Shown: positions 11,333 through 40,165 of the stretch, piece by piece
Position numbering within the stretch: position 1 is the first letter of the stretch
How the letters are laid out: every line of letters begins with the position of its first letter
Source of the DNA: a virus
Direction: 5' to 3' (one strand)
Virus record (IMG/VR): IMGVR_UViG_3300032677_000070
Span: 1-40,165 of that record
Length of the DNA: 40,165 nucleotides
The notes under the pieces: model-generated
What the model was told of the DNA's origin: nothing
Database searches by the model: none
Seen by the model: the letters and a program-made list of their open reading frames with translations, nothing else
Position numbers and translations under genes: made by a program

Positions 11333-11392
11333 CCAGGGACGCCAGGCCGTGGCCCGAAACCCACGCTGGCCTCTACAGAACAGGAGTCAGCC

Positions 11393-14300: not shown

Positions 14301-16141
14301 AGGCCCAGCCGCTCCTCTACCACGACGAGATGAGCAACCACCACTCCGAGGCTCATGTGCAGCACAAGCATGAGATCGAACACCCCGGGCAGGTCGCCCG
14401 GGCCGGAACCCAGCAGATGATCCGGGCCGCCTCCGCCTTCGAGAAGCACTACGGGGAGAACAAGCCGGAGCCCACCCCCGGCGCCTCCGCCAAGGACTCC
14501 GTCGCCTCAACCCACGACGGCCTGACCTACGCGCAGCGCCTGGCTGGGAAATCCAACAGCCCCATGGAAAAGAGCCGTCTACACGATGCCGGCCACTCCT
14601 CAGAGGTCGCCTACGCGACGGGCGGCAAGCAGGACCACATGAAGGCCCACTACGACCACCTCGCCGCTGCAGGACAAGCCAACCACCCGGACATCAAGGC
14701 CCACCACGAGAAATACGCCCAGATCCACAAGGAAAAGGCTGACGCGATCGTCCCCTCCGCGGCCCCCAAGCCGAAGCACCCCGCCAATGTCGCCTACGAT
14801 GAGGCTCACCGCGTCCCCAACGTGAGGATCAATAAGAAGAACTGGCCCAAGTTTGGCGACAACACCCGGACTAGCACCCAGAAGGTGACGAAGGACGCCA
14901 CCGACGCCACCACGAAGGCCGAAGGCAGCGGAACCGCCGAGGATCACCAGGCCGCTTCCGACGCTCACTGGAAGGCAGCCCAGGCCCATGAAATCGCCTA
15001 CAGCGGACCCGGCCAGACCTACTACTCCGGCCACAGCCGGGCCAACGACGCCCACATGAAGGCTGGGATCTACCACCAGCAGAAGGCCATGGAGGCGAAG
15101 AAGGCCGGCAAGACCAACGCGACTGCTGCGAAGGAACCGCCCCTCGCCCCCGAGGCCAAGGACTACGACAAACGAGTCCGCGCCTACGAGAAGAAGGGCA
15201 TGAGCCGCTCGGATGCCCAGGGCGTAGTCGATGCCGAGGACATGAAGGCCCGGAGCAACCCCTCGGGAAAAGCTGAGGGGGCCTCGCAGGCCCCCGCCTA
15301 TCCCAACCTTAAGGGAGACGCCAAGAAGATGGGGCTCCACGAATTCTTGGATAAACACAATATCGAACATTTAAATGAGCACCTGGACAATGGGCTGACT
15401 CCGTCCAATAGGCCCCACGCCGAACTCCACCCAGATCGAATGGACCCATCTGAATGGGACGACTGGGATGAGCACAAAACGTGGGCTGGCAACACCATGC
15501 CTACATCCAAGAAACACATAGAGGGCCTCCGTGAATCAATCCGAAAGGGCGCCAAGACCAACCCTGTTCTGGTAGACCACCAGGAACCTGGTAAATACAG
15601 ACCACAGGTCATAGACGGCCATCATCGTGTCGCCGCACACAAAGAGGAGAACAAGCCGGCGCCCGTCGGATTTAACGCCAAAACCCTCGCTGGCACTTGG
15701 GCGAGTGAGAACGGGAAACCAAACACCCAAAAAGACCGGGATCGGATGGAGTCGGAATACAGGGCCCACCTTGCAACTAAGCCGGCTGCGTTAAAACCCC
15801 CCGCCGCCCCCAAAGGTGAGGTAACCGGCGCCAAGGAAAAAACCCGAGAGGCCGTCAACAATGCAGACCAGGGCGACGGTGGAAGCCGAGCCTACGACCA
15901 CAAGTGGGACAACGACAAGGGGAGCCCCAGCACCGCCAAGGCCATGGATGCCACGCACAAGCTGTCCTATGTGGACGGGTTCCCAAAGGAGCACGCAGAG
16001 GCCGCGAAGCACCACCGTGCCGCTGCAAGGGAATACCGCCTCGGAGAGCGTGACAAGAGTATCTCCGCGATCAAGGCAAACAAACGTGCCGACTACCACG
16101 ACGCCATGGCCGAACACCATGAAACCCACTCGAAGAAATAG
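11393..16141 (+). CDS. Giant His/Ala/Lys-rich repeat protein with a ParB-like domain (polyvalent cargo protein candidate)
   Basis: 1582 aa from ATG 11393 with ACAGGAG seven bases upstream; an open extension to 11300 lacks a site. Residues 1-120 form a globular start with the motif HTRVVNGKVIYIHDY (about 19-35). Much of the rest is imperfect helical repeats with A..H..A...H spacing, giving a very His-rich protein. A globular island lies at about 545-680 (PPMEFIAKDSKGRHFYVN). At about 1335-1425 a ParB/sulfiredoxin-like domain appears: NPVLVD followed by QVIDGHHRVAAHKE. That domain is more AT-rich than its surroundings, as if inserted. It lies first in the cargo operon, next to a smaller relative. 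Injected DNA-associated protein is the likely role; a structural role is possible. Confidence 0.65.
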   Translation: MGLNETLRSLLKAHVKGHTRVVNGKVIYIHDYDSSKPQGRAAELHERTTIGKHRSGTHYLRATDAEDGTQIQATANRLGIKTDKRRAGANHFGRVGAYDHYHVESPEHALAIHEELKKLAGKGAPEMQEPGPEAKVAAKKAAPKDHTEANIVAHDAEEESELLQGKGDKAAHAHARTVSAHNGTAFKHPHPTTANLHELAAQAHREAHAENGEEGHLKAAEHHDTLAAYHHGEGKKKYEAFKAKQASDYESHRTKAKEASEAAHTASLTANTKDEHARALGLHHQAMLEHQEAGKATTHAGRKSMHEANFAEHSDMINGHSARMTTGGGKDATLEARAASNLTRIPDKDLKPEDYDKAIAAHNRAGSAHVVAMDKGQAGSRAHHSSQADQHAQDARTIEAMKAEHLKEHGNASAGGNPPSEDSNGTPKLRAHNATRVANELSEKANNSNSPEDHTAAAEAHEKARILHHEAQPSGFDAPGAEEHRFAKKYHGNTAETHKEKAKELSQPKIRKIVEDQQAKEKAEGPQGDSPKLKAAKAKNWGKPSEFPNGDMREILHPGDGNRKNQAARKPSDWDEAVQESGPIGDHPDEIGALKHLHAAHGTHWVPKPLNDINDHPHRENDTDYSGQVRGKRPPMEFIAKDSKGRHFYVNTEGGKYARYARHIPDEIAEKAGITTPHPMDKLGEAGKASRKVLDISSEIGQSGITPENHPRWTERESLSKEAAKLHTEAAKQAHTKGDHKLAELHEKWAKSHGGSTDEPVTVKPAEEPKGHAIPKPTTMPPLAGARPSDVAEHGAQASDLSRKAEALKNGAGGYPHERAAITAHNATLNARVGSLQAASGGDHGRAALLHTAAAQAHGEAATAAKGPMSDGHEMIASGHSDLAKKHAAIADASNAEKEANKARAKAKLPEYTAKANEAGKKAFAMTRKGNDDPDGEGKVEGHHDVASKLHAHAANLHREAREMAHTAGEAQPLLYHDEMSNHHSEAHVQHKHEIEHPGQVARAGTQQMIRAASAFEKHYGENKPEPTPGASAKDSVASTHDGLTYAQRLAGKSNSPMEKSRLHDAGHSSEVAYATGGKQDHMKAHYDHLAAAGQANHPDIKAHHEKYAQIHKEKADAIVPSAAPKPKHPANVAYDEAHRVPNVRINKKNWPKFGDNTRTSTQKVTKDATDATTKAEGSGTAEDHQAASDAHWKAAQAHEIAYSGPGQTYYSGHSRANDAHMKAGIYHQQKAMEAKKAGKTNATAAKEPPLAPEAKDYDKRVRAYEKKGMSRSDAQGVVDAEDMKARSNPSGKAEGASQAPAYPNLKGDAKKMGLHEFLDKHNIEHLNEHLDNGLTPSNRPHAELHPDRMDPSEWDDWDEHKTWAGNTMPTSKKHIEGLRESIRKGAKTNPVLVDHQEPGKYRPQVIDGHHRVAAHKEENKPAPVGFNAKTLAGTWASENGKPNTQKDRDRMESEYRAHLATKPAALKPPAAPKGEVTGAKEKTREAVNNADQGDGGSRAYDHKWDNDKGSPSTAKAMDATHKLSYVDGFPKEHAEAAKHHRAAAREYRLGERDKSISAIKANKRADYHDAMAEHHETHSKK

Positions 16142-19112: not shown

Positions 19113-19382
19113 CGCGAGTCTGTGCCTTGCGGCCCACCTCATACGCCCAAAGCGTTTCGGCTGGGGCTCCCCACCGGGCATGTAAAGGTTGGGGCCACTT
19201 GGGACCGAACGCAAGTCCTTACGCTCACGACCAAAGGGGGTTCCCGGTGAAGTCGGCGGCGATGTTATACCCTCCGACCCTACGCGCTGCGACCTACATT
19301 CGCCCGGAACACAGCGGGAGCGGGAACCAGAGTCAGGTTGAGCCCATCCCCACCAACCCGCAAGCCCCTTTGTGAGCACCAC
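19113..19382 (+). other. Apparently non-coding gap between nuclease and helicase genes
   Basis: About 270 bases. A plus-strand open frame overlaps the previous stop by ATGA (19109-19375, 88 aa). Its product (Pro/Ala/Ser-rich, no hydrophobic core pattern) and lack of a ribosome site do not look like a gene. Base composition is less GC-biased than the neighbours. It probably holds a promoter or the remains of a gene, but I see no clear -35/-10 pair. Confidence 0.4.
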
Positions 19383-22300
19383 ATGACCCAGCCCATCCAA
19401 TTCCGCGACGCCGCCGGCAACGACCTCGACTGGAGGATCGTCGGGTGGTCGGCTGTCATCGCCCCCAAGCCCATCACCACCCCGGACATCGACGGTGCCG
19501 CGGACCAGGCGGAACCCCCGGGCCGGATCCGCAAGGGCACCGAGGCCCCCAGCTACAAGCGCGGGCGACTGGTGTTCCAGGGGATCCCTGTGGTCATCGA
19601 GAACCCCAAGGGGAGCGTGCGGAGGGGATATGGGCCGGATGGGAAGCCGTGGGCGAACGAACTGCAGGCGCACTATGGCTTCATCGCCCGCACCTTCGGC
19701 CAGGACGGCGACGGGGTGGACGTATTCGTAGGCCCGGACCCCGACAGCGACTTCGTGCTCATCATCCACCAGGTGGACCCAGCCACCGGCCAACCGGACG
19801 AGGACAAGGTGTGCCTCGGGTTCTCGAGCGCCCTAGCCGCCAAGACGGCCTACATGGGGAGCTACCAGAAGGGCTGGAAGGGCATGGGGTCCGTCACCCC
19901 AACCACGGTCCAGGGGCTGAAAGACTGGATCGCGGACGGCCAGACCGACCGCCAGATCCTGAAATCCGAGCCCGATGCCGACGGGTGCCGCTGGATCACC
20001 GTCCACCACGGCGGAGGCGAGGGCCAGGCCATCAAGGTCATGCCGGCCCAGGGCCACAAGGGCACCTGGCGGGTGGTCGGTGGCGCCGGTGGGAGCCTCA
20101 ACGGCCTCCGACTGCACGGACTCAAGAGCCCCGAGGAATACCAGAAGGAGGCCAAGGAGCGCCGCCAGCAGCAGAGCCTCGAGAAGAAGAAGCGCCAGCA
20201 GGACATGACCCCCGAGGAGCGCCACGCGGACAACGCGCTCGAGAAAGAAACCAAATCGAAGAACAAAGAGGTCCGGAAGAAGGCGGAGACTGCCTTCGCA
20301 GACAAGGTGCTGGGCCCCGAGCAGGGCAGCCTGCTGGGCGATGACGGGGAGCCCACGCCCGATGACCCCAAGGCCCAGGCCGAACACCACCGGGAGCGCC
20401 TGAAGGCAGCCCACATGGCCGTGCGCGAGGCCCAGAAGAAGCTGGTCCTCGACGTCGAGGCCCGGGTCCAGGCCGGCATCCCCACCATCGGGGGCTTCGC
20501 GCCCCACGGGCTGGACATCGATGATCTGGTCTCCGAGGCGGATCCCAAGGGCCCTGGCTACCAGCGGGCCCTGGCCAAGCGGGCGGAAATGTGCGGCCTG
20601 ACGGCGGACAAGCTGGCGGAGCAGATCGCAGACATCAAGGAGCGCCGGAACGCCGGGGAGGGGAAGCCCAGCCCCGCGGAGCCCGAACAGGCCAAGGATG
20701 GGGAGAAAACGGCCCTGCCAGGCATGGAGGGCGCCGTAGGAAAGGACGACCACGAGACGAAGAAGGCAGCCAACATCGAGGCCCACAAGGCCGGGAAGGA
20801 AATCCAAGCCCACAAGGCCGCGGCCACCCGGGAGGCCGTGAAGGAGGTCATCAAGAAGAACGAGAACCTGGCAGCGCTCCTGCAGGCCCGGAAGGAACTG
20901 CGGGCCGTCTATAAGGCCGCCACCCCGGAGGCCAAGGAGCGGGTGTTCGCCGAGGGGTTCCAGATGGCCGTCGGGGAGGGCGACACCGCCGCGCTCGAGC
21001 AGGACGTCTATCAGCAGATGCTCACCAACAACGTCGTGGGCTTCCTGCGGGAAGTCGGGGAAGCCTATCCCGAGGGAGAGCCCCTGGACCGCTTCGACCC
21101 CAAGGCCATGGAGGGCTTGCACGCCACCCGCGGGGCCGCTGCCTTCGACGCCCTGCACGAGATCGCCCTGGCGGCCGTGGGCCAGGGGATGATCGAGCGC
21201 GACGTCGTGGAGGCCCTGGGCCCGGAGGGTGCCGCCCAGCTAGTGGGCCGGGGCATCCGGAGGGAGTTCAGCCCGGAGGACCAGGCGTCCATCCTCGAAG
21301 CCCTGGAGCACCACCACCTGAAAGAACAAGAGGCCCTGCCCGGCGTCGTGGACGAGGCCCAGGCACTGAAGGCCGAAGCCAACCGCCTCCGGGCGGACCT
21401 GGCGGAGAACCCCCGCGACCTGACCATGGCCGTGGAGATGCAGAAGAACCGCCTGGCCACCTTGAAGGAAGCCCGACGGACCCTGGGAGGAGCACTGGGC
21501 CGCCTCGAGGCCCGGGCAGCCCTGATCGCCGATCTGCAGCGGGGCAAGGACCAGGACATGATGACCCTCCCCCTGGGGAAGATGACCCCGGAGAAGGCGG
21601 TCCAGACCGCGGCCTCCATGGGCATGAAGGAGGGCGACTACAAGATCGACCACGAGAGCGGCGAGGCCGTGATCCACATGAACCCGCAGGGCCAGGACCG
21701 CCTGGTGCAGCCGGTGGACATGGCGGCCACCCACGAGCGGGACCTGGCCCTGGCCATCAAGGGCGGCCAGCTTGACACGCCCGGATACCTCCCCAAAGGC
21801 TTCGCCGATCGCACCGACAGCCGATACGACCACCCCATCCAGGAGGCCCCCCAGTTCCGCAAGCGCCTCCAGGTGACCGACGGCATGAGCCCCACGGAGG
21901 TCCACGACGCCCTGGCGGACCATGTTGGGGCCCGGATCGCCGATGGGGAGCGCCCCTCGGACATCCTGAACGACGTCATGTCGGGAACCTTCATGGCGGA
22001 CAGCGTCCACGAGGGAGCGATGAAGGACTACGTCGACACCCTGCAGCAGGTGTTTCCCCTCCAGGAGCAGGTGAAGGACAAGGACGGGAAGCCGGTCGTC
22101 CAGAAGGCCGAGGACGGCACCGAATATCCCAAGATGCGCCTCCGCACGATGGAGGAACTGGCCCCCCACTTCGACAAGATGCTGGACGCCTACCTGACCA
22201 AGCAGGGCGTGGCCGGCGACGCGGCACTGTCCCGCCAGCGCGTGGATGCCGACCACCCAGACTTCGCCGAGGCGGTCCACCGATCGCTGGCGGAGGACCC

Positions 22301-24785
22301 CCGGACGGTCGCCGCATTTACCCCTCCCGGGGAACTCACACCCGAGCACCAAAGCCACATCCGCGACTACTTCTACCGGGAAATCAAGGGCGTGGACCCC
22401 GAGGCCCATCGCGCCAAGGCTGAATCCCAGGTGGACGGCCCCCCCGACAAGGCCGGCGAGGAACCCAAGCCGAAGGCCGCAGCCCAGACCAAAGACGAGA
22501 AGGTCCACACCCGCGCCATGGAGATCGCCGGCCCCCAGCCGGAGGAATGGGAAGTGGATATGTTCGGGGAGCAGACCCACTCCCCCGTCTGGGTCGACTG
22601 GAAGGCCCGCTATGACGGCGCCAAGGAGGCCGCGGAGAACGGCCAGGACGGCGACCTCGAGGCCAACACCAGCACCTACATCGCCCCCAGTGGGCAGAAG
22701 GTCCAGGCGTCGGCCGCGGCCCCCCAGGTCGAGGACAGCCCATGGGCGCAGTATGTCCAGGCCATGGGAGGGCTGAAGCAGGCCCAGGCCGCGGTCCAGG
22801 ACAGCATGAAGGGAGCCTTTGCCCAGCGGTTCAAGGCCCAGCACGAGCGCCTCACCGGCAAGGGCCTGAAGCTGGGCCAGACAGACCTCGCGCACCGGGA
22901 GCGGTTCATCGGCGCCACCATGGACCCCGACAAGTTGGCGGCCATGCGGAAGAACCAGGCCAGCCTCGCCACGGGCCTCCGGAAGCGCGACTCCCGCGGC
23001 CGTCTCCAGGAAGGCGCCGTGGCCGACATGATGGAGGAGGCCCGGAAGAAGCGCCAGGCAGCCCTCCAGGGCCAGGCACCCCTATTCGAGAAGGAGGAGG
23101 AGCCCGGCCTGCGCCCCACCCTCGGCCCCACCCTCGAGGCCCAGATCCGAGCCCACATCCCGGGCCTGGCCGTTGCCTTCGAAGGAATTCGGCGGGGGAT
23201 GAACGTCCACGAGAAGGTGGCGATGGACGGCGACAAGAAGGTCCAGCAGCGGGCCATCCGAGCCATCATCCACCTGCAGCGCCAGGGGCTCTTCCTCGGC
23301 GCCGGATCCGGCAAGACGCCGATCATGCTGGGGAGCCTCACGGAACTCCACCACAGCGGGAAGGTCAAGAAGTCCATCCTGGCGGTGCCCAGCATCGTGC
23401 AGAAGCAGTTCGGGGCAGAAGCCATCCGGTTCATCGACCCCAACAGTGGCTTCCATGTCCACGCCCAGCCGGGCGAGAGCTATGAGGAGCGCCTCCGGGC
23501 CTACCAGGACCCCGACAAGCACGCCGTGGTCGTCACCCACCAGAGCCTGCGGGATGACACCCTGCACATCCTGGGCGACCACCTGGGCATGGACCCCGAG
23601 CGGACCCACGACTGGGCCATGAGCGTGCCCAAGGACAAACTGGCCAACACCGTGAAGGAAGCATTCGCCAAGGCCGGCATCGACTTCCAGGCCCTCATGG
23701 TGGACGAGGCCCACGGGGCCCTGGACCGACTCGGGAAGGAGGACAGCACCTTCTCCCGCATCATGGACGCCCACAGCCGGAACGTCTCCCACATGGTCAT
23801 GGCCACGGCCGACCCCATGAAGAACGACGTCTCCGAGATTTACAGCGACCTGAACCACCTGGACCCCCACAACTACCCCGACGAGGGCAAGGACGAGTTC
23901 ATGCGCCGGTTTGGCGGGGACGCCGAACTGTGCAAGCGCAGCCTGGCCCAGCAGCTGACCCGCTACTGGACCAACGGCCGCGTCACCCTCCCCAAAGAGG
24001 CCCACCGGGTGGATGACGGGATCGAACTCGAGCCCCACCAGCACGAGGCCGTGGCCAAGGTCGACATGGCCGTGGGCAAGCTCCGGACGGGCGCCGAGGG
24101 CGAGGAACGCCTGAAGTGGGCCAAGGAACTGGCCCCGGAAGCCTTCGAAGGCCATCCCGAGGGCGACCATGAGGCCATCGCCAAGATGGTGGCCCGCAGC
24201 GTGGGCACCTTCCGCGAGTCGGCCATGAACCGGATCATCAACCTGGACCCCGCCGGCGGGAAGATGATCGCAGCCGTGAAGCAGGCCAAGGACGCGAAGG
24301 CCGAGGGCAAGCCCATGGTCATCTTTGCCCGGAACCTGGGCGCCGTGGCCTCCCTGCACAAGAACCTCGAGGCCGCGGGCCTGAAGGTGGCCAGCCTCAC
24401 CGGCAAGGACTCCAGCAAGAACAAGGGCGAGAAGGTGTCGGCCTACCAGCGGGGCGAGAACGATGTGATCGTGATGAGCGACGCCGGCGCCGTCGGGGCC
24501 AACCTGCAGGAAGGCAAGATCCTGGTGAACTATGACCAGGCGAACACGGCCATGCTGATGAACCAGAGGCAGGCCCGGATCAACCGGATCGGCCAGACCG
24601 ACAACGTGGAGATCCGGCACCTGCTGGCGAACCACAGCTGGGAGAAGCAGAACACCGAGCGCGTGAAGCGGAAGGATACCCTGGGGGCCGTGTTCCAGAG
24701 CCCCGAGGGCTTCCTGGACGACACCGGCCTCGCCGGCGACCTCCGCGAGATCCGGGCCCGCAGGAACCAGGAGAGAGTGGCATGA
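19383..24785 (+). CDS. 1800-aa polyvalent protein: inorganic-pyrophosphatase-like domain plus SNF2-type helicase
   Basis: The start is taken as ATG 19383, where the folded sequence begins; ATG 19338 is possible and neither has a strong site. Residues 45-185 match the InPase domain of polyvalent proteins: IPVVIENPKGSVRRG, AHYGFIARTFGQDGDGVDVFVG (Asp-rich metal site), then a LAAKTAYMGSYQKGW helix. About 215-245 holds WRVVGGAGGSLNGLRL, then a long helical middle. Residues 1290-1780 form a superfamily 2 helicase. They show Walker A GAGSGKT (about 1305), a DEAH box VDEAHG (about 1440), MATADPMKN, and motif VI QRQARINRIGQ (about 1728), as in SNF2 proteins. Such fusions are proposed to enter the host with phage DNA and protect or remodel it. 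Overlaps the next gene by ATGA. Confidence 0.8.
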   Translation: MTQPIQFRDAAGNDLDWRIVGWSAVIAPKPITTPDIDGAADQAEPPGRIRKGTEAPSYKRGRLVFQGIPVVIENPKGSVRRGYGPDGKPWANELQAHYGFIARTFGQDGDGVDVFVGPDPDSDFVLIIHQVDPATGQPDEDKVCLGFSSALAAKTAYMGSYQKGWKGMGSVTPTTVQGLKDWIADGQTDRQILKSEPDADGCRWITVHHGGGEGQAIKVMPAQGHKGTWRVVGGAGGSLNGLRLHGLKSPEEYQKEAKERRQQQSLEKKKRQQDMTPEERHADNALEKETKSKNKEVRKKAETAFADKVLGPEQGSLLGDDGEPTPDDPKAQAEHHRERLKAAHMAVREAQKKLVLDVEARVQAGIPTIGGFAPHGLDIDDLVSEADPKGPGYQRALAKRAEMCGLTADKLAEQIADIKERRNAGEGKPSPAEPEQAKDGEKTALPGMEGAVGKDDHETKKAANIEAHKAGKEIQAHKAAATREAVKEVIKKNENLAALLQARKELRAVYKAATPEAKERVFAEGFQMAVGEGDTAALEQDVYQQMLTNNVVGFLREVGEAYPEGEPLDRFDPKAMEGLHATRGAAAFDALHEIALAAVGQGMIERDVVEALGPEGAAQLVGRGIRREFSPEDQASILEALEHHHLKEQEALPGVVDEAQALKAEANRLRADLAENPRDLTMAVEMQKNRLATLKEARRTLGGALGRLEARAALIADLQRGKDQDMMTLPLGKMTPEKAVQTAASMGMKEGDYKIDHESGEAVIHMNPQGQDRLVQPVDMAATHERDLALAIKGGQLDTPGYLPKGFADRTDSRYDHPIQEAPQFRKRLQVTDGMSPTEVHDALADHVGARIADGERPSDILNDVMSGTFMADSVHEGAMKDYVDTLQQVFPLQEQVKDKDGKPVVQKAEDGTEYPKMRLRTMEELAPHFDKMLDAYLTKQGVAGDAALSRQRVDADHPDFAEAVHRSLAEDPRTVAAFTPPGELTPEHQSHIRDYFYREIKGVDPEAHRAKAESQVDGPPDKAGEEPKPKAAAQTKDEKVHTRAMEIAGPQPEEWEVDMFGEQTHSPVWVDWKARYDGAKEAAENGQDGDLEANTSTYIAPSGQKVQASAAAPQVEDSPWAQYVQAMGGLKQAQAAVQDSMKGAFAQRFKAQHERLTGKGLKLGQTDLAHRERFIGATMDPDKLAAMRKNQASLATGLRKRDSRGRLQEGAVADMMEEARKKRQAALQGQAPLFEKEEEPGLRPTLGPTLEAQIRAHIPGLAVAFEGIRRGMNVHEKVAMDGDKKVQQRAIRAIIHLQRQGLFLGAGSGKTPIMLGSLTELHHSGKVKKSILAVPSIVQKQFGAEAIRFIDPNSGFHVHAQPGESYEERLRAYQDPDKHAVVVTHQSLRDDTLHILGDHLGMDPERTHDWAMSVPKDKLANTVKEAFAKAGIDFQALMVDEAHGALDRLGKEDSTFSRIMDAHSRNVSHMVMATADPMKNDVSEIYSDLNHLDPHNYPDEGKDEFMRRFGGDAELCKRSLAQQLTRYWTNGRVTLPKEAHRVDDGIELEPHQHEAVAKVDMAVGKLRTGAEGEERLKWAKELAPEAFEGHPEGDHEAIAKMVARSVGTFRESAMNRIINLDPAGGKMIAAVKQAKDAKAEGKPMVIFARNLGAVASLHKNLEAAGLKVASLTGKDSSKNKGEKVSAYQRGENDVIVMSDAGAVGANLQEGKILVNYDQANTAMLMNQRQARINRIGQTDNVEIRHLLANHSWEKQNTERVKRKDTLGAVFQSPEGFLDDTGLAGDLREIRARRNQERVA

Positions 24786-31596: not shown

Positions 31597-31770
31597 GTGA
31601 TCCGCCACCGAACCCAACCCCCAGAGGAACGAGCCTCCAGAAAGGCCACCCGTGCCGCCAGGAAGGCCGAATTCCAGGCGCTGGTACACGAGGCGGTAGC
31701 GGAGGCCATGGAAATGGGAAGGCAGCGCAGGGCCAAGTGGAGAGCATGGAAGGCTGGGAGGGTGGCGTGA
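31597..31770 (+). CDS. 57-aa basic helical peptide
   Basis: GTG 31597 is chosen because the 19-bp repeat lies exactly 15 bases upstream, as before the 31093 gene, and because CGGAG is present. The open frame extends back to ATG 31471 but would overlap the well-supported 44-aa gene. The peptide is very basic and helical (RASRKATRAARKAEFQALV, GRQRRAKWRAWKAG). Its stop overlaps the excisionase start by GTGA. It may be a DNA-binding accessory factor for excision; that is inference from position. Confidence 0.45.
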   Translation: MIRHRTQPPEERASRKATRAARKAEFQALVHEAVAEAMEMGRQRRAKWRAWKAGRVA

Positions 31771-31955
31771 TCGACTGGAAAGCACTCTCCATCCAGTTCA
31801 AGGCCTTCCGTGGCCGTGGCGTGAGCTACCACACGATCCAGGCCTGGCAGACCATGGGTATGCCTCACATTCAGGAGGGACGCTTCATCTTCTACATCTG
31901 GGATGATTGCCGGGAGTGGTATCTTGAACGCTTCAGTGTGAGGAAGGCCGGATGA
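31767..31955 (+). CDS. Excisionase-like DNA-binding protein
   Basis: 62 aa from GTG 31767, with GTGA and ATGA overlaps with its neighbours. The sequence RGRGVSYHTIQAWQTMGMPHIQEGRFIFYIWDDCREWYLER has the shape of an Xis/MerR-like winged helix. It shows a short helix-turn-helix (SYHTIQAWQTMG), then a wing with the aromatic FIFY strand, then a closing helix. Direct coupling to the integrase supports a recombination-directionality role. Confidence 0.65.
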   Translation: MIDWKALSIQFKAFRGRGVSYHTIQAWQTMGMPHIQEGRFIFYIWDDCREWYLERFSVRKAG

Positions 31956-33076
31956 AATTCTGGCGGGGCAAGGACGGCATCTGGAGAGTCCGTGACACCG
32001 TCGAGTGCCAGGCCAGCGAGTGCGACGCCTGCAAGTCCGGGACCAAGCACACCAAGCACACCAAGCGCTTCCAGAAGAACCTAGGCAAGGTGAAGGGGCA
32101 GGCAGAGGCCCTGGCGCTGGAGGTGGTGAAGGAGGTCAAGGCCAGGGCCAACGGGACCTACGTGCCCACCCTGAAGGAGCTGCGGCAGGACTGGCTAGCG
32201 GCCAATGCCACGGAGGTCTCCATCGGGCACTGGAACAACGTGAATACCTGGGACAGCCAGGGCCTCGACAAGTTCAAGATCGACCGCCTCACCAACGAAG
32301 TGGTGGAGCTGGCCCGAGGGAAGTTCCGGGCCGGGAAGGGCAGGGCAGGGGAAACCCGCTCCGATGCCACCGTGGCCGGTTGGATGCGCACCCTGAACCT
32401 GCTAATCAACTGGGCCATCGCCCGAAAGGCCCTCTCGGCGAAGCCCTACGACATCGCCATTCCCAAGCCCCAGAAGAACCCGAAAAAGATCCTGCCTGTG
32501 GCCATGGTGAAGGCCTGGGTGGAGTGTGTCGATCGCCACACCCGGAACTCACAGGTGGGCACGGCCACGCGCCTAATGGCCGGGCTGGGGCTCCGAGAGT
32601 CCGAGGCGCTGGGCGCCCGGTGGGAGTGGATGGACTGGGAAGCCCACACCTACACTCCTGGCCGGATCGTGGGTCGGAAGTTCGTCACGAAGGGGAAGAC
32701 GGCCGTGCCGGTGGACGTGCCGGCGTGGCTCTATGACCACCTGCTGCAGCTGCGGGGCGAGCAGATCCGGCTGGGCCTCATCCTGCCCTGGAAGACCCTA
32801 AAGGACGGCACCGAGATCCCGCACCCCGCCACCTTCACCAGGGCGGCCTTCCGGGCGGCGAACGTGGAAATGAAGACCCCGGGTGTCACGGCCCACCGGC
32901 TGCGCGGGACTTGGATCACGCACTTGCTGCGCCGGAAGACGCCGCTCCGGGAGGTTCAGGAGATGGCCCGCCACGCCGAAGAGAGCACGACGAACAGCTA
33001 CTATGAGATCGCCTCCGAGGTCCGCAAGGAGGCCCAGGAAGGCCTTGCCCAGGACATGGGTTTCGGGGCATCCTAA
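31952..33076 (+). CDS. int: Tyrosine recombinase integrase
   Basis: 374 aa from ATG 31952, overlapping the excisionase stop. The N-terminus has a Cys-rich start (CQASECDACKSG) and a basic KHTKHTKRF stretch. Residues 70-165 form the core-binding SAM-like domain (TLKELRQDWLAANATEVSIGHW), and 180-374 the catalytic domain. The catalytic set is visible: Arg215 in LGLRESEAL, Lys249 in VTKGKT, His315 and Arg318 in HRLRGTW, His341 in ARHAEEST, and nucleophile Tyr350 or 351 in NSYYEIA. It would integrate the phage at the tRNA-Arg fragment 67 bases downstream. Confidence 0.95.
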   Translation: MKFWRGKDGIWRVRDTVECQASECDACKSGTKHTKHTKRFQKNLGKVKGQAEALALEVVKEVKARANGTYVPTLKELRQDWLAANATEVSIGHWNNVNTWDSQGLDKFKIDRLTNEVVELARGKFRAGKGRAGETRSDATVAGWMRTLNLLINWAIARKALSAKPYDIAIPKPQKNPKKILPVAMVKAWVECVDRHTRNSQVGTATRLMAGLGLRESEALGARWEWMDWEAHTYTPGRIVGRKFVTKGKTAVPVDVPAWLYDHLLQLRGEQIRLGLILPWKTLKDGTEIPHPATFTRAAFRAANVEMKTPGVTAHRLRGTWITHLLRRKTPLREVQEMARHAEESTTNSYYEIASEVRKEAQEGLAQDMGFGAS

Positions 33077-33083
33077 TTGAGAC

Positions 33084-33102
33084 TGGCGCGGATTCGGCAC
33101 GG
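33084..33102 (+). repeat. Possible integrase arm-type site, left
   Basis: TGGCGCGGATTCGGCACGG matches 33302-33320 at 16 of 19 positions in the same orientation, and the two flank the tRNA core. Arm-type integrase sites are typically such short direct repeats. Only two copies are seen. Confidence 0.35.
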
Positions 33103-33142
33103 CACCCATCGGGAAGCGCACCAGGGCTAAGCCTTCCAGATA

Positions 33143-33187
33143 CTACGAATCTGAGGGTCGGACGTTCGAGTCGTCTCGGGACCACCA
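33143..33187 (+). other. Attachment site core: 3' half of tRNA-Arg(ACG)
   Basis: From the anticodon loop CTACGAA to the CCA end, canonical tRNA numbering fits exactly: 3' anticodon stem TCTGA, variable GGGTC, T-arm GGACG-TTCGAGT-CGTCT, acceptor strand CGGGACC, discriminator A, CCA. The 5' half is absent: upstream bases do not pair and there is no GGTCCCG. This is the usual duplicated tRNA end left by an integrase that targets a tRNA gene. If integrated, it is attR, with the host to the right. Confidence 0.85.
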
Positions 33188-33191
33188 GTCA

Positions 33192-33215
33192 AAAGCCCCT
33201 AAAATAAGGGGCTTT
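33192..33215. terminator. Bidirectional terminator just after the tRNA end
   Basis: AAAGCCCCT (33192-33200), loop AAAATA, AGGGGCTTT (33207-33215), followed by GTTGTTTT and preceded by A residues. This is the kind of terminator normally found right after a bacterial tRNA gene. It suggests that sequence right of 33187 is the original downstream flank of the tRNA. Confidence 0.8.
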
Positions 33216-33301
33216 GTTGTTTTAGGGACCAGACCAAAGTATCGGATCCGTTGCTGTCTGTTGCTTGTAAGTGCTGACCTTTGCGCCTCGTTTTCGAAGA
33301 G

Positions 33302-33320
33302 TGGCGCTGAATCGGCACAG
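33302..33320 (+). repeat. Possible integrase arm-type site, right
   Basis: TGGCGCTGAATCGGCACAG, 16 of 19 identical to 33084-33102 and in the same orientation. Lying beyond the tRNA end, it would mean that phage-like sequence exists on both sides of the core. Confidence 0.35.
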
Positions 33321-33346
33321 TGTTCTACGGATCGTTCCACACAATG

Positions 33347-33366
33347 AAAAGGCCCCTCGCGGGGCC
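33347..33366 (-). terminator. Rho-independent terminator of the right-hand tail operon
   Basis: Minus strand: GGCCCC, loop GCGA, GGGGCC, then TTTTCATTGTG. It lies 23 bases after the lipoprotein stop codon and closes the operon. Confidence 0.85.
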
Positions 33367-33388
33367 TCGTCGTGGAGCTGCGGACTCC

Positions 33389-34231
33389 TCATTCCTTCGT
33401 GAACACCGCCGAGAGCTGGTTGTTCCAACCGTTCGTTGCATTGTTTGGTCCAGCCGTCAAAATAACAAGGTTTCCACTTGCATCAAAATAAGCCAGGCCA
33501 GTGGTACCCCCTCCAGCTAAAGTCCCACTAGAGGGTGTCCAGAGAAAACCAATGTCGAAAAGGTTGAGTGAATGGGTGGTGTCCCTGTTTATCCATCCCA
33601 TGGTCCCCGCATACTGGCCGAGAACGTTTACCTTTGCCGCGGCATCTGCGTTGTTCGCATAGGCGTCGATGGTGACGTTGTAACTCTGCCCCAGGGCGGC
33701 CGGAACGGTGATCCTCAAAACTTGGCCGGTGCTACTGGATGTGCTGATCCAGGTGCCTGCCTTGGTAGGTAGGTCGATGGGGGTGTTCTGGATGGTCGTG
33801 AGAACCACGTCGAAGGTAAGTCCGCCATTGACTGTTCCAACCATCTCGTTCCCGGTCATGGTGCCCGTCAAGGTCAGGGGAGATGTGGCTCCTGCAGCAG
33901 TAGTAAGCGTGGGCGACGTGCCGACCTGAAGCGTTCCGTCGGGTAGCGAAGTAATGACGGCATTGACGAGGTTCCATCCCGGCAGTTCCATGAGACTTCC
34001 GCCAAACTGATCCACGATCACCGTCTGAGTGATGTCCCCGAGAGGCTGAATGGCACCCACGGCAGTCATAACTGAGACGCTACCGGTCGTGTGCTTGGCC
34101 GTGTAGGTTCCTTGCGGGATGGCCGTGGCGACAGGCGTAGGGGCAGGCGCGGGAGACGGCGTGGACGAATGTGAGCCACCTGAACAGGCAAAGATGAGGC
34201 TAGCAAGGAAGAGAACGAGAATGTGTCGCAT
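33389..34231 (-). CDS. Lipoprotein of unknown function at the end of the tail operon
   Basis: 280 aa from ATG 34231 with AAAGGAG four bases upstream; ATG 34252 has no site. It begins MRHILVLFLASLIFACSGGS, a signal peptide ending in a lipobox-like IFAC (Phe at -2 is unusual). A Ser/Pro/Ala/Thr linker (about 25-45) and a long beta-rich domain follow. Two similar stretches contain TGTMTGNEMVGTVNGGLTFD and GTLAGGGTTGLAYFDASGN, ending with WNNQLSAVF. No family recognised. Its position and separate lower-GC composition fit a phage moron, perhaps a surface protein that alters phage sensitivity. A host gene cut off by the att junction is also possible. Confidence 0.6.
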   Translation of the reverse strand: MRHILVLFLASLIFACSGGSHSSTPSPAPAPTPVATAIPQGTYTAKHTTGSVSVMTAVGAIQPLGDITQTVIVDQFGGSLMELPGWNLVNAVITSLPDGTLQVGTSPTLTTAAGATSPLTLTGTMTGNEMVGTVNGGLTFDVVLTTIQNTPIDLPTKAGTWISTSSSTGQVLRITVPAALGQSYNVTIDAYANNADAAAKVNVLGQYAGTMGWINRDTTHSLNLFDIGFLWTPSSGTLAGGGTTGLAYFDASGNLVILTAGPNNATNGWNNQLSAVFTKE

Positions 34232-34296
34232 GGGGCTCCTTTCAAGGGCCAACTGTCTTAATTCTACGTCCTGAGGGTAGACAATTCCTGACGAAT

Positions 34297-34662
34297 TTAT
34301 TGAGTGGCGCTAGCTGTTGGTGCAGCGTAGGTTCCCGCTGCAAGAGACTGGAGATTGGCGATTAAAGTTGAATCGGTCACGAGACCGGCCGCCTGAGCCG
34401 CCGCAATAAAGGCCGCCAGAATGTCTGCTTTGTACCCAAAGTCATCCGTAATGCCGGGACCAGCTCCTCCCTCCAGGGCTGTGAGTTCATTCTGTGCCGA
34501 TTGAAGCCGCCGCTGGCTGTCGCCGCAGTTGCTCGAAAGCAGGGTGGCGAGGCTGGCCTGCGCTTCCACGAGGCCCTGCATTTTCGCTACCTTTTGTTTG
34601 AGTTCGGTTCGCCGGGCTTCATTGGCCAATGCGGTTTGAATGGTAAGGTCCATGGTCGCCAT
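34297..34662 (-). CDS. Small helical protein after the tail fibre (chaperone candidate)
   Basis: 121 aa from ATG 34662 with AAGGAG six bases upstream. Residues 5-65 form a helical coiled coil (TALANEARRTELKQKVAKMQGLVE). A linker follows, and then a small helical end (KADILAAFIAAAQAAGLV, STLIANLQSLAAG). It is 10 bases downstream of the fibre-like gene, the usual position of fibre-assembly chaperones. No family recognised. Confidence 0.5.
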   Translation of the reverse strand: MATMDLTIQTALANEARRTELKQKVAKMQGLVEAQASLATLLSSNCGDSQRRLQSAQNELTALEGGAGPGITDDFGYKADILAAFIAAAQAAGLVTDSTLIANLQSLAAGTYAAPTASATQ

Positions 34663-34672
34663 GGTGATCTCC

Positions 34673-36760
34673 TTATGGTGCTGGTTTCATGTTGTGGGAA
34701 ATGAGCCCGTCGCTGATGTAGGTTGAGCATCCGTCAACTCCGAACGTCACCACCTGTCCAAGAACTGGGGGACCTATCGTTTTCACGATGCTAGGAGACT
34801 GGCCCAAGATGGAATCGCCAGGCTTCAGATCTTGAACTGATACCCAGCCTTTGCCTTCAACCGCCAAACGGTGGAGCACGCTGAATTCAGGGGCCCGGCC
34901 ATCCTCAAGAACCACGGCAGAGCGCATCTTGAAAAGGAGAGAGACATTGCGAACGGTGCCCACCATAGGCTCTAGCGTCATGTCGTTCACGCCGATGACC
35001 CGTGCGCCATCGTAGAGGTCGCCTGCATCCACGATCAAACCGGAAGCAAGTGTGATCTTCACCCAAGGGGCAGGACACAGTCCTCCGCCTCCGCCTCCGC
35101 CGCCGCCACCTCCGCCGCCCGTGCCTCCTGTCATGTTGGTCGGCCAACCCGCACCACTGTTGGTTAGGGCAGACCCATCTGCATTGCCAGTAAAGGCATA
35201 GAAACAATTCGCAGCGCTTGGTCCGTAGACATTATAGAGAGAAACCAATGCCGCAGGAAATCCTCCGTTGATCCCAGAATCTACGGTTTCAAAGGTGAAA
35301 ATTGCTAGATTTCCAGAGTTTGAATCAGTGCCCGCAGAGTAGTAACTTCGATCATTGGCAACCGGATAATAGGTATCAATCGCCGTCAATGTCGCCGTGG
35401 TAGATCCCCCTGAAACCACATTCTGGCGATATAGGACAACCTTGAGAAACCGCATTGCGTCCAAATTGTCCTGCCAGGATGAAGGCTGGTAAGACAGTCC
35501 AAGGCGCCCGACGTGATTCGTTGTGTCCCATCGGCGACGAGTAATCGTAAGCCTGTCAATTAAGGGGGCACCTAGCCGTGTAGAAACGTCAATGCTTCCC
35601 CGGTAGAAGACATGCCCGACCGAGGTGTTCCCATCGAGCCCCTGATTGATCCGTGCCAGCAGGTAATCGCTGAAAATCGTGGACCCAATCTGAAGATTAT
35701 TCGACGCCACCTTCAGCGCGGTAGAGCTGATGTCCATGCGGGCGCCAGCCGTGGGGTTGCCTGAGACCTCGGTGTAGTTGCTGGTCTGGATGGCATCGGC
35801 CTGGAGCATGCCGGTATTGATCATTCGGCAAGCGTAGATCTGGTTGAATGCGACCGAAGTCGCCGACGATGGATTGAAAAGCTGAATAAAAACTTTCATC
35901 GTGACGGGAGCACCACCACCAGGAACTGATGCGGGAGCGGTTGCATTGAGGCTCAGCTTCTGAGGGTTGGTGTATGAAAAGGTGCTGACAGTTTGTGCAG
36001 AATAGTAATCAGCCCCTACTCCGTTCGCGTCCAAGAATGAGATACCAAGCCAAACGGTCCCCATAAAAGCGCCTATGTAGGCGGCGAAGCATTCGGCATG
36101 AAATTGATCACCAGGAGCACAGGGCGCAGAAGCCACCCGGTAATAGATGTTCCCTCCGGCACCCGCTGAAACCAGTCGGATCCATCCATTCGGCGCGAGC
36201 AGGGATCCGATGGCCGAAGGATCAATAGCGCCCCAGTTCACGAGCCCAAGGGACTCTGGGCTGGCCGCTGGCGGGATAGTGTTGGCACAATTCCCATTTT
36301 TTACGATGTTGTTCGGAGAGCGTGCCAACGCATCCGCATAGGCCGCATTGGCGGTGATCTCGTCCTGGCAAGCCTTCTGCAACGATGCCCGGTTCAACGC
36401 GATGGAGGTCCACCAGGTATTCAGGTTCGTCATGATGCTGGTGGAGGACATCGTGGTGCCATCCGGCCAGGTGGTGGCCCAGTTCGAAGGAGCACCCGCT
36501 GCGATCAGATTCGTGGATAGCGCAGCTACAGCCGCATCGTAGGACGACGAACTCACACCCAAAGCGGAAGACTGGGTGTCAAGTTGGGCATTTATTTGAT
36601 GTTCTGCATTCCAATCCTGGATAAGGATTATTTTATCAAGGTTAGTTAGCTTATTGGACGAGTTGAGATCGTTAACGGTAGATGTTGGCGCCAGCGGCGT
36701 CGTAGATGGAGCGGAAGAAGAACCACTCGAAGACGTGGTAGCCCACGGACCATTAGGCAT
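34673..36760 (-). CDS. Tail fibre/tip protein with polyglycine linker and C-terminal Hint (intein-like) domain
   Basis: 695 aa from ATG 36760 (GTGAGGG upstream). Residues 30-150 are helical (LDKIILIQDWNAEHQINAQLD) and 150-540 are beta-rich carbohydrate-binding-like modules. A run of 13 glycines (548-560) follows. The last 134 residues are a Hint domain. Block A is C562-PAPWVKITLASG, leading to DLYDGARVIG. Block B is FSVLHRLAVEGKGWVSVQDLKPGDSIL. Block F is VVTFGVDGCSTYISDG, ending LISHN (His689-Asn690) and MKPAP. All residues for N-terminal thioester chemistry and Asn cyclisation are present, but the residue after Asn is Met, as in bacterial intein-like domains that cleave rather than splice. 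Lower GC than neighbours. Confidence 0.75.
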   Translation of the reverse strand: MPNGPWATTSSSGSSSAPSTTPLAPTSTVNDLNSSNKLTNLDKIILIQDWNAEHQINAQLDTQSSALGVSSSSYDAAVAALSTNLIAAGAPSNWATTWPDGTTMSSTSIMTNLNTWWTSIALNRASLQKACQDEITANAAYADALARSPNNIVKNGNCANTIPPAASPESLGLVNWGAIDPSAIGSLLAPNGWIRLVSAGAGGNIYYRVASAPCAPGDQFHAECFAAYIGAFMGTVWLGISFLDANGVGADYYSAQTVSTFSYTNPQKLSLNATAPASVPGGGAPVTMKVFIQLFNPSSATSVAFNQIYACRMINTGMLQADAIQTSNYTEVSGNPTAGARMDISSTALKVASNNLQIGSTIFSDYLLARINQGLDGNTSVGHVFYRGSIDVSTRLGAPLIDRLTITRRRWDTTNHVGRLGLSYQPSSWQDNLDAMRFLKVVLYRQNVVSGGSTTATLTAIDTYYPVANDRSYYSAGTDSNSGNLAIFTFETVDSGINGGFPAALVSLYNVYGPSAANCFYAFTGNADGSALTNSGAGWPTNMTGGTGGGGGGGGGGGGGLCPAPWVKITLASGLIVDAGDLYDGARVIGVNDMTLEPMVGTVRNVSLLFKMRSAVVLEDGRAPEFSVLHRLAVEGKGWVSVQDLKPGDSILGQSPSIVKTIGPPVLGQVVTFGVDGCSTYISDGLISHNMKPAP

Positions 36761-37037
36761 AGACGGCCCTCACTGCGACATTGATTCCGGTGAGTGTCGT
36801 TTTGATCGGCACAGAAATCTGACATTCGTGGTTTTCGGTGGGCTGGACCTTTTGAATGGGGACGATGTAGGTCCCGGGGATTGCAGGATTCGTCCCGATG
36901 TAGAACACGACCTCGAACCAGGAGGGCAGCGGCACATTGCTCGGCCACCCCCATGTTGCGTAGAGATAGTTCAGTTTGAGCGTCTGAGGGTTACCGCCGT
37001 TGTCATCAATCCCATCACCACTGGGGGCCATTCGCAT
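36753..37037 (-). CDS. Small tail-operon protein of unknown function
   Basis: 94 aa from ATG 37037 with GAGGTG upstream, 8 bases after the tip-protein stop. It is a compact beta protein (PSWFEVVFYIGTNPAIPGTYIVP, HECQISVPIKTTLTGINVAVRAVYA). Its stop overlaps the fibre start region. The immunoglobulin-like strand pattern suggests a fibre-attachment or decoration domain. No family recognised. Confidence 0.55.
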   Translation of the reverse strand: MRMAPSGDGIDDNGGNPQTLKLNYLYATWGWPSNVPLPSWFEVVFYIGTNPAIPGTYIVPIQKVQPTENHECQISVPIKTTLTGINVAVRAVYA

Positions 37038-37045
37038 GTGTCACC

Positions 37046-39091
37046 TCAGATGAAGGGAGTGGTGCCGATTTGCAGCACCACGTTGGTCGGCTGCGGATAG
37101 GACTGCGCTGAGGGCGTGAACGAGTACGGCGTCTCACTCGACAGCACACGGCCGCCGCCTCCCCAGAGGTTGAAGCTGAGAATCTTTAGGTAGGACAGGA
37201 CCCCCACCTGGCCCGGCTGCAGCTCGTAGCGGAACATGGCCGAATCGCACCGCCCCCAGGACGCCCCGGAGCTGTGCGAGCTGATGGTGGTTCCGTAGAG
37301 GCCACGGAAGAGGCCGGTCAAGTTGTAGTGGTTCGCCGACGTGAGAGTAGCCGTCTGGAAGCTGATCATTTCCCCGTCCACCCAGAGCAGGTTCAGCCCG
37401 TTCTGAGCGCTGGCGAGGTCGATGGATGAAAGCGTGCCCCCGTTCGGCAGGACCACCGAAAGGGTGTTCGTGTTGTCCTGGGCGGCGCCACCAGCCCAGG
37501 TGGGCAGTGAGGCCGTGAGGGTTCCGTAGCGCCCCGGCGCGGTGATGCTCCCGACCTTCCCGTAACTGCTCCCGGAGGCGCTTCCATACACGTCGCCCGT
37601 GCCCCAGTTCGCACCGCCGGTCGTCAGGACGCAGACCTCGGCCCCCCCTGGCACCGCAGCGAACAGGGAAGGCGACGTGAAGATCAGCGGGGCAGCGCAG
37701 GCGCCCGGGTCCACGTTGACGTTGGGTGAAGTACCAGCGGGTGTCTGCGCGGTATAGAGCGCGGCGCTGGCCACGCCGAATGGCCACTCCTCGCAGGTGA
37801 AGGTCATGCCCCCGGCTTCGTTGTCCTCGCCGGGGATGTCCACCGAGACGATACGGACGGTCTTGTTGGTGAAGCCGATGATCGGATCCGAGATGTTCAC
37901 CAGGTCCATGGCCTCCAGGAGCATGTACTTCAGGCCGAGGTTGAACTGGTAGCCGTTCCGGATGTAGACGTTCTTCTGGCTCAGAATCAGGCTGATCTGC
38001 GAGGCCACGGAAGCCCGGCAGATGCAGTGGAGGGACTTCGCCGTGTCGTTCTTCTGGCCAATCAGCGCCACAGACACCGGGTCCGGCATCTGCATCACGT
38101 TGACGTTGTAGGCCAGGAGCCGGTCCAGGTACTCCACCGGAACACAGTTGAAGATGTCCTGGGTGCTGTCGCGGGTGATCTTGACCGGGTCCTTCGCCCC
38201 GTTGGTGATGAAGTCGTCGTAGCCCAGGTTGTAGATGGGCGTCGTGTTCGGCGTGTAGGTCGCCCCGTTGGCAGTGATGGGCACGTCGCCGTAGGGCAAC
38301 ACCTGGAGCACCATCCCCGTCGCCGTGCTGTGGCTGATGATCTCGGAGTTCGTGGCGTCCAGGATGTCCTGCAGGTGATCGCCGGCGTTCTTCTGGGTGT
38401 CGAAGCTGGGCGACAGGACGAACCCGCAGGCCTGGCAGTAGGTCTTGTAGGAGGCCGCCCCGGTGGTCATCCCCGCCACGTCGATCTGGCTGGTAAGCCA
38501 ACCCGCGCCGTGGTTCGGGTCGGTCAGGAAGTCCGTGATGATGTCGCTGGGGATCGCGTCGTAGGCGGCCAGGGCATTCGGGTCCTGAGCCGTCGCCAGG
38601 AAGGCCACAACCTCAAAGCCGAAGTTCGGGATGCTGGCGCTGGAACCCAAGGGCAGCGAGGCGCTGGCCACATAAGCGAAGCCGCTGTAGGGGGCGGCCT
38701 GGCTGGGGTAGTTGCTCGTCAGGGTCGCCCAGGGGGTCTGTGGCCGCGTGCCGGTGGCCGTGAACGTGAACCCGAAGCCCGACAGGCTGCCAAGGGCCCC
38801 GGCACTCCAGACCTGGTTGATGCTGGAGATGGGCCCCTCGCACAGGGCGATGATCACGAAGGCGTTGTAGGTGTAGGTGGTGCTGGACGAGCTGCCCGCG
38901 CCACCCTTACCGCTAGATTGGGAGGTCGTGTGCGGCGTGGCGATGAAGCCGCTGGGGGGAGCGAAGATCACGTTCCCGCTGATTCGGGTGGTGCCATAGA
39001 CCAGAGGCAGGCAGGACCCGTAGATGCTCGTCTGGATCTGAATGCCCGCGATCTGCTGGTCCACCTGGGACTGGTTGTGCCGGCCGCCCAT
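37046..39091 (-). CDS. Tail tip / attachment protein (Phage-tail_3-like, GTA gp15-like)
   Basis: 681 aa from ATG 39091, whose A is shared with the TGA of the peptidase gene; the longer open frame to 39211 is a shadow. It begins GGRHNQSQVDQQIAGIQIQTSIYGSCLPLVYGTTRISGN, the start of GTA-type tail attachment proteins. It contains FVIIALCEGPISSINQVW, ITDFLTDPNHGAGW and DATNSEIISHSTATGMVLQVLPYGD. A C-terminal beta module ends LWGGGGRVLSSETPYSFTPS. It would form the hub and tip of a non-contractile tail. It follows the NlpC/P60 gene as in gene transfer agents. The TIM-barrel half of full-length gp15 proteins is absent. Confidence 0.75.
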   Translation of the reverse strand: MGGRHNQSQVDQQIAGIQIQTSIYGSCLPLVYGTTRISGNVIFAPPSGFIATPHTTSQSSGKGGAGSSSSTTYTYNAFVIIALCEGPISSINQVWSAGALGSLSGFGFTFTATGTRPQTPWATLTSNYPSQAAPYSGFAYVASASLPLGSSASIPNFGFEVVAFLATAQDPNALAAYDAIPSDIITDFLTDPNHGAGWLTSQIDVAGMTTGAASYKTYCQACGFVLSPSFDTQKNAGDHLQDILDATNSEIISHSTATGMVLQVLPYGDVPITANGATYTPNTTPIYNLGYDDFITNGAKDPVKITRDSTQDIFNCVPVEYLDRLLAYNVNVMQMPDPVSVALIGQKNDTAKSLHCICRASVASQISLILSQKNVYIRNGYQFNLGLKYMLLEAMDLVNISDPIIGFTNKTVRIVSVDIPGEDNEAGGMTFTCEEWPFGVASAALYTAQTPAGTSPNVNVDPGACAAPLIFTSPSLFAAVPGGAEVCVLTTGGANWGTGDVYGSASGSSYGKVGSITAPGRYGTLTASLPTWAGGAAQDNTNTLSVVLPNGGTLSSIDLASAQNGLNLLWVDGEMISFQTATLTSANHYNLTGLFRGLYGTTISSHSSGASWGRCDSAMFRYELQPGQVGVLSYLKILSFNLWGGGGRVLSSETPYSFTPSAQSYPQPTNVVLQIGTTPFI

Positions 39092-39582
39092 CAGGCACCC
39101 CACACATTCAAAGACCAGACGCCCTGCTGGGCGCCCCGCAGCACGTGGTTGCGCTCGGCGTCGTCGAGGATGACTCCGAGCCGAATGTAGGCGTGGATGA
39201 GCTCCGGCCATTTGGTGACGATGGCACCGTGACTCATAGCCTTGTCGAAGCGGTAGAGGATGATGTCCCCAGGCAGCGGCGCCCGGTCCACCTTGTGGGC
39301 CACGCGCTCCACGATCTCCAGGTAGCGCTCCTCGGAGCGGTGCAAATGCCAGTCGTGGGGGTAGTCCTCGATCTTGGTGGGCTGGATCACCCCGGTGTCC
39401 TCGAAGACAGCCGCCAGGAACTGCCCGCAGTCCACCCCAGCGCCCCGCACGCGCCCTTGGTGGAGGTAGGGGGTCCGAAGCCAGGTCAGGGCCTCCTGGA
39501 CCACCGCCAGGCGCTGCTGCTGCTCCTCCATGGGCAGGTGCTCGATCTGGCTGTGGGCCGCCAGCATCAGGTCCGCGATCAT
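39091..39582 (-). CDS. NlpC/P60 peptidoglycan peptidase (GTA gp14-like)
   Basis: 163 aa from ATG 39582, ATGA overlap with the upstream gene. Catalytic residues are visible: Cys52 in GVDCGQFLAAVFEDTG, His118 in MSHGAIV and a third polar residue at His130 (ELIHAY). The segment LPGDIILYRF precedes the His, as in phage NlpC/P60 proteins. It would cut peptide cross-links during DNA entry and sits between hub and tip genes. Length is normal for the phage family. Confidence 0.85.
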   Translation of the reverse strand: MIADLMLAAHSQIEHLPMEEQQQRLAVVQEALTWLRTPYLHQGRVRGAGVDCGQFLAAVFEDTGVIQPTKIEDYPHDWHLHRSEERYLEIVERVAHKVDRAPLPGDIILYRFDKAMSHGAIVTKWPELIHAYIRLGVILDDAERNHVLRGAQQGVWSLNVWGA

Positions 39583-40165
39583 CCCGTCACCGTCGTCTCG
39601 GGTGGAGGCACCCATGGGCAACCCCGGTACCGGGTCGAGTTGCTGTACTTCGTGTTGCAGGTGGTCCACTGCTTATCGCAGCCGGGCGTGATGGTGAAGG
39701 TGTCCCCGTTCGACGGCGCGGCGGGCAGCGGCGTCACCAGGACGATTACCCCCCCGCTGGTGAAGGTGGAGATGGCCCGGGTGGCACCGGACGCCGCCCC
39801 GGAGGTCATGGTGAGGGTGCCGAGGTTGAAGTAGCCAGTGGCCTGCCCCAGTCCCGAGGCCGTGAAGCCCGTCGTGGAGGGCCCGCTGGTGATCGAGCTG
39901 CTGACCGTGAGGCCCGCCAGGGACTTGCCGCAGTTCGCGTCCCCAAAGGCGTTGGAGCAGCTGCTCTGAAACACCGTGCGAGGCATCTGGTTGATCAGGA
40001 GTTCCTTGAAGTCCTTGACCTCCAGGACCACCGTCGTCGTGGTGGGATTCACGGCCGCCACGTTGCCCTGGAACAGGACCACGGACCCGAGCGAAGTATC
40101 CCCCCACCCGCCGGGCCCCATCGGCACCCATTCCACCAGGACCTGCGCACCGTCGAACCCGCCAT
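39579..40165 (-). CDS. DUF2163 / BR0599-like tail hub protein, 5' end missing
   Basis: The frame is open from the right edge to TGA 39579 (195 residues visible). The C-terminal motif GCDKQWTTCNTKYSNSTRYRG followed by PWVPP is the signature of the BR0599 family. Upstream FGDANCGKSLAGL matches its usual fGd..Cg.dL pair, and VKDFKELLINQMPR its distal strand-helix. In gene transfer agents this is gp13, a tail-tip hub ring. Its stop overlaps the NlpC/P60 start by ATGA. Confidence 0.8.
   Translation of the reverse strand, partial: GGFDGAQVLVEWVPMGPGGWGDTSLGSVVLFQGNVAAVNPTTTTVVLEVKDFKELLINQMPRTVFQSSCSNAFGDANCGKSLAGLTVSSSITSGPSTTGFTASGLGQATGYFNLGTLTMTSGAASGATRAISTFTSGGVIVLVTPLPAAPSNGDTFTITPGCDKQWTTCNTKYSNSTRYRGCPWVPPPETTVTG

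Follow-up and report, generated by a model that had tools for sequence, protein, structure and literature searches.

RESULTS

Organization of the attachment site and its surroundings

The window, by which we mean the whole stretch of DNA analysed here, is the 40,165-base viral record IMGVR_UViG_3300032677_000070. The following features bear on the site under study.

31737..31955 (+): 72-aa ORF overlapping the integrase start; candidate excisionase (recombination directionality factor) by position and conservation
31952..33076 (+): tyrosine integrase, 374 aa (PF00589, phrog_1), with a Cys/His insert in the predicted N-terminal (arm-binding) domain
33084..33100 (+): putative arm site on the integrase side, TGGCGC-N5-CGGCAC, from repeat and spacing
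33143..33187 (+): core, running from the anticodon loop of tRNA-Arg(ACG) to CCA (3' half of the gene)
33192..33215 (+): stem of a terminator hairpin directly 3' of the tRNA end, with a T-rich tail to ~33225
33250..33289 (+): conserved box in which TGC recurs at 10-bp intervals, containing TTGCNNGTAANTGNTG at 33261-33276; present in 5/5 attPs
33302..33318 (+): putative arm site on the tail-gene side, TGGCGC-N5-CGGCAC, from repeat and spacing
37046..39211 (-): tail protein gene (phrog_1101, PF13550/PF23666)
39579..40163 (-): tail assembly / baseplate hub-like gene, truncated where the contig stops (phrog_778, PF09356, PF09931)

The initial annotation had read the core as the 3' half of tRNA-Arg(ACG), and this assignment held: its anticodon loop is CTACGAA (anticodon ACG), and the search for an intact gene that had been proposed with it turned up a complete tRNA-Arg(ACG) on a Holophagaceae contig (L019) whose 3' end is identical to the core in 45/45 bases. 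ARAGORN called no tRNA at 33143-33187, and at up to three mismatches the core matched the window once (shuffles, 0/100), showing that a second copy is absent from it. The terminator, likewise proposed earlier, forms a stem of nine pairs (-15 kcal/mol) directly after the tRNA end; 7 of 200 shuffles folded equally well.

On either side of the core lies a direct repeat (33080-33098 and 33298-33316) with 16 of 19 bases identical, a number that none of 300 dinucleotide shuffles reached (maximum 15). A repeat finder at default settings did not report it; a scripted test did. The pattern YGGCRC-N5-YGGCRC occurs twice in the 40 kb window, both times at the arms, and 6/100 shuffles also gave two matches. 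Judged from the window sequence by itself the repeat is therefore suggestive of arm sites, as had been supposed; four other attPs with a repeat pair in matching positions turn the suggestion into a firm result.

The DNA to the right of the site belongs to the phage

Positions 33389-40163, to the right of the attachment site, are phage DNA with the two tail genes on the opposite strand; the three ORFs adjoining the site (33389-36760) gave no family match. A homologue of the tail protein encoded at 37046..39211 lies to the right of the attachment site in two relatives, at 53% and 57% identity. One of these is a 39.6 kb viral record (L002 and L004) with an integrase gene split over both ends. The overlap between these ends is 148 bases long and contains 137 matches, its final 126 bases being identical, so that the record looks circle-like although IMG/VR classes it as linear. 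The other is a Geothrix MAG contig (L042, in G003:C41), which has the same site with the tail homologue to its right. Only one integrase and one core are present in the window, which contains no long internal duplication; its ends do not overlap. Because the relatives share this layout and the window has a single integrase and a single core, we conclude that the DNA right of the attachment site is the phage's own.

These results bear on the two other readings that had been offered for the junction. According to the first, it is the attR of an integrated prophage, with the tRNA end and the terminator belonging to the host and the chromosome following to the right. An attR-like junction of a relative (L015, described below) does have a half tRNA and a terminator directly after the integrase. 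In the window, however, tail genes collinear with those of a relative stand beside the tRNA end in place of chromosome, and a second arm site and the box, both missing in L015, are present to the right of the core, which makes attR highly improbable. According to the second, the junction is a hybrid between two related phages lying in tandem at the same tRNA. The middle junction between like phages would resemble an attP, and tandems at this target seem to exist: the 68 kb viral contig 3300048576_000125 carries two tRNA-Arg halves (L008 4207-4251 and L009 1122-1166) on the same strand, ~20 kb apart and each with a terminator, which are probably tandem elements. Yet the lone integrase and core of the window, its lack of a long duplication and the single-core order of the relatives, one of them with overlapping ends, leave this second reading very little credence. 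An attP was also among the readings offered, and it is the one that agrees with phage genes to the right and the same layout in relatives.

Several other properties of the window were recorded. GC content is 55-57% over 33001-37000, from the attachment site through the unmatched ORFs, as against ~65% elsewhere, and this stretch may be a recently acquired host-recognition module. ARAGORN called a tRNA-Met(CAT) inside the phage at 27007-27083 (-). An ORF of 1815 aa (19338-24785, +) matches phage helicase families towards its C-terminus and minor-head, endolysin and DarB-like families towards its N-terminus, and an ORF of 1613 aa (11300-16141, +) has no PHROG or Pfam match. A short direct duplication of 63 bases, 78% identical, lies at 7673-7825.

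Five attPs share one geometry but differ in their arm motifs

We compared five attPs, those of the window, L004, L003, L042 and L006. A locus was included if a tRNA half and a second arm accompanied an integrase from this clade, and L015, being without a second arm, was left out; L001, L007, L010, L056, L091-L093 and L098 are duplicate retrievals of these loci and not extra cases. All five (5/5) have the same order, namely integrase stop, arm site, tRNA half, hairpin, the box TTGCNNGTAANTGNTG and second arm site, and in each the paired arm-type sites flank the core, as recognized by sequence pattern and spacing. The first arm lies 59 bp from the core start in 5/5 attPs, and the distance between arms is 218 bp in four and 217 in one; 117-118 bp separate the core start from the box and 41-42 bp the box from the second arm. 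The repeat pair exceeded all 300 shuffles in four attPs, while in L004 its score was reached by 2/300.

A hairpin follows the tRNA end in 5/5 attPs, and four of the five pass the terminator test that was also applied to the host flanks (below), that of L042 failing it because it has no good T-run. The initial annotation had seen a conflict between the terminator beside the tRNA end and the repeats on both sides; the conflict is only apparent, and it is resolved because elements at this site carry the terminator as well as the tRNA end.

Each arm site consists of two hexamers 11 bp apart. The hexamers are of the type YGGCRC in the window, L004 and L003, YGGCCC in L042 and TGGCGA in L006; since the window and L004 are closely related, there are three arm types at most. 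Agreement between hexamers averages 5.17/6 within phages versus 4.44/6 between them, and 22 of 20,000 permutations did as well. By reading, the box repeats TGC at a 10-bp phase, with four occurrences in the window, L004 and L042 and two in L003 and L006. In contrast to the arms themselves, the box does not change with the arm motif, and its likelier binder is therefore another protein, perhaps an excisionase or a host bending protein.

The constant spacing also speaks to the possibility that the site is a dead remnant, once used for attachment and since abandoned. No integrated form of the window's own phage was found in 77 genomes of the family, as might be the case for a remnant, but the spacing has stayed fixed over five phages whose integrases are 45-91% identical, the integrase and its neighbour genes are open, and the T stem of the core has changed on both sides with, by reading, its pairing kept. 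We regard a dead remnant as scarcely credible.

The integrase and the small ORF before it

The catalytic domain of the integrase was recognized above cut-off (PF00589, E 4.5e-12). Its predicted structure (mean pLDDT 74.3, pTM 0.49) has an N-terminus with strands and a helix and matches several tyrosine recombinases, Tn1549 Int and lambda Int among them, the match to lambda Int 1z1b being full-length; no Pfam arm-domain match was obtained for the N-terminus even at E 1. The window integrase appears to be a lambda-like tyrosine recombinase. Among 50,697 phage records no match to it was found at E 1e-10, and other related integrases have no tRNA-Arg half directly 3' of the gene.

In the alignment, an insert of the form CX4CX2C...HX2H stands between the second and third strand in the window, L002 and L003, and is missing in L042 and L006; its residues suggest that it may bind metal. 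Integrases with the insert coincide with YGGCRC arms, so that the arm hexamers and the Cys/His insert vary together, a correspondence that with few independent cases is suggestive and no more.

A small ORF directly precedes the integrase in 5/5 phages, the other versions being 51-79% identical to that of the window. It matched no Pfam or NCBIfam family above cut-off, and there were only sub-threshold matches to Phage_Nu1, a winged-helix family. Its product could act as an excisionase.

The host lineage and its tRNA-Arg(ACG) gene

The pattern of the tRNA 3' half was found in genome_contigs in 45 stretches as 46 copies, namely 35 intact tRNA-Arg(ACG) genes and 11 halves. By title, 35 of the stretches are Geothrix or Holophagaceae, eight 'Acidobacteria bacterium', one Bacillota and one Deltaproteobacteria, and the genomes with the last two titles (G012, G015) are nonetheless listed in the Geothrix fermentans family. 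Sequence matches thus place the host in Holophagaceae/Geothrix (Acidobacteriota).

Upstream of 26 of the 35 intact copies lies a glycerol-3-phosphate-dehydrogenase-like gene, below the NCBIfam cut-off; its match stops 19-23 bp short of the tRNA in 25 cases and 63 bp short of it in one. Four of the nine copies without it have less than 1.8 kb of upstream sequence. Downstream, the flanks are variable: 43 of the 46, the three others being dropped with fewer than 100 bases each, fell into 20 groups at 1e-4 and 26 at 1e-8 by blastn. Gapped clustering of these flanks had been too lax (2 groups) and was replaced by blastn; an all-against-all tblastx of host flanks, in which nearly every pair matched in this GC-rich DNA, gave way to a stricter tblastn. 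A terminator-like hairpin was present within the first 75 bases of 38/43 downstream flanks versus 12/560 control stretches. Conserved on its left and changing on its right, where a separate terminator is present each time, the gene has the look of an integration hot spot at which elements bring the tRNA end and the terminator with them.

Occupied sites and a rare T-stem allele

The best case for an occupied site in this phage clade is L015, which belongs to a relative and lies on a Holophagaceae MAG contig that breaks off inside the integrase gene. The remaining integrase fragment of 97 residues is 78% identical and is followed by a half tRNA and then by thioesterase and EamA genes, a right flank called host from gene content alone. 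The hairpin after the half tRNA is of another type, and one side only of the attP anatomy is present, as expected of an attR; by its sequence, L015 is attR-like. Another contig of the same MAG (L053) has an intact tRNA followed by 10 bases that are common to L015, and then ends. An attL with the box of this clade was not found in the 77 family genomes, the sole pattern match being the L042 attP.

Other elements also use the same tRNA-Arg(ACG) site. Intact and half tRNAs stand on one contig in Geothrix campi SG10 (L032, L048), Geothrix C12 (L027, L050) and the Holophagaceae genome MJ3_bin-213 (L029), the last with an island of ~5 kb between the intact and the half tRNA-Arg(ACG) (L029 577-5680).

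The T stem of the window core reads GGACG/CGTCT, while the other copies inspected, L019 excepted, have GGGCG/CGCTC; by reading, both pair. Among 97 loci the window's 45 bases recurred only in L019 (refetched as L089) and in the window's own L001, and the last 28 core bases matched no viral contig in a search that possibly did not include the window's own record. In L019 the intact tRNA is followed by type I restriction-modification genes (L089 2743-8643), and in the same MAG a half with the common allele is followed by two-component genes (L039, L090). This pattern, on two unlinked contigs, fits an element having swapped the host T arm.

DISCUSSION

The core of the site is part of a tRNA of the host lineage, with phage DNA on both sides. 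Because the right flank is phage with tail genes, and two relatives share the layout and the tail homologue, we read the site as attP and not attR; positions 33084-33318 very probably make up the whole attP of a temperate tailed Holophagaceae phage.

Integration at this attP would proceed as follows. The integrase would bind the two arm sites (33084-33100 and 33302-33318) and the core at the anticodon-loop region, from 33143 onward, and the core would recombine with the corresponding segment of the host's tRNA-Arg(ACG) gene, strand exchange presumably falling within it. At one junction the 5' half of the host tRNA would join the phage-borne 3' half and terminator into an intact, terminated tRNA gene, which would be expressed; the displaced host 3' half and host terminator would end up beyond the integrase gene. 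Excision would be driven by the small upstream protein.

A further reading, less likely than not, is that the arm code and the integrase co-evolve by gain or loss of a metal-binding loop (with the insert, YGGCRC pairs; without it, YGGCCC or TGGCGA pairs; spacing and box constant), and that elements with a variant tRNA half exchange the T arm and the terminator of the host's tRNA-Arg(ACG) gene for alleles of their own.

The site resembles the lambda attP/Int/Xis system in having a tyrosine integrase with a predicted arm-binding-like N-terminal domain, arm sites flanking the core, a total length of ~240 bp and a small gene before int. It differs in that the target is a tRNA gene, the arm pairs are symmetric with one per side, and a Cys/His insert is present in the integrase; no host factor site was identified in the window.

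In the part consulted here, the Islander report (PMC4383910) describes attPs that include a 3' portion of the tRNA gene they target and thereby restore that gene on integration, and lists an anticodon-loop-centred crossover class among its subsites. The window attP, carrying such a fragment, is like the anticodon-centred islands and prophages of that report; it differs in the hairpin that follows the tRNA end in all five attPs, the same part of the report making no mention of a terminator. Burkholderia phage AP3 inserts at one end of a tRNA-Arg gene, which is reported to stay functional (PMC5247547). AP3 shares with the window phage the tRNA-Arg target and an attP adjoining the integrase gene, but it is P2-like, and what is swapped there is the 3' end of the integrase gene and the last 15 tRNA bases (PMC5247547). 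Passages of PMC5900883 with Geothrix or tRNA hold nothing on this attachment site, which we do not take as absence from print.

The attP is ordinary in kind and well conserved in form, and its phages are those of a little-studied host family of soil and water bacteria. The attachment site ties an unassigned metagenomic phage to the host family Holophagaceae, and the case shows how attP can be distinguished from attR at a site that has both a tRNA end and a terminator. With their constant geometry and changing arm motifs, the five attPs form a natural set for studying how integrases read their arm sites.
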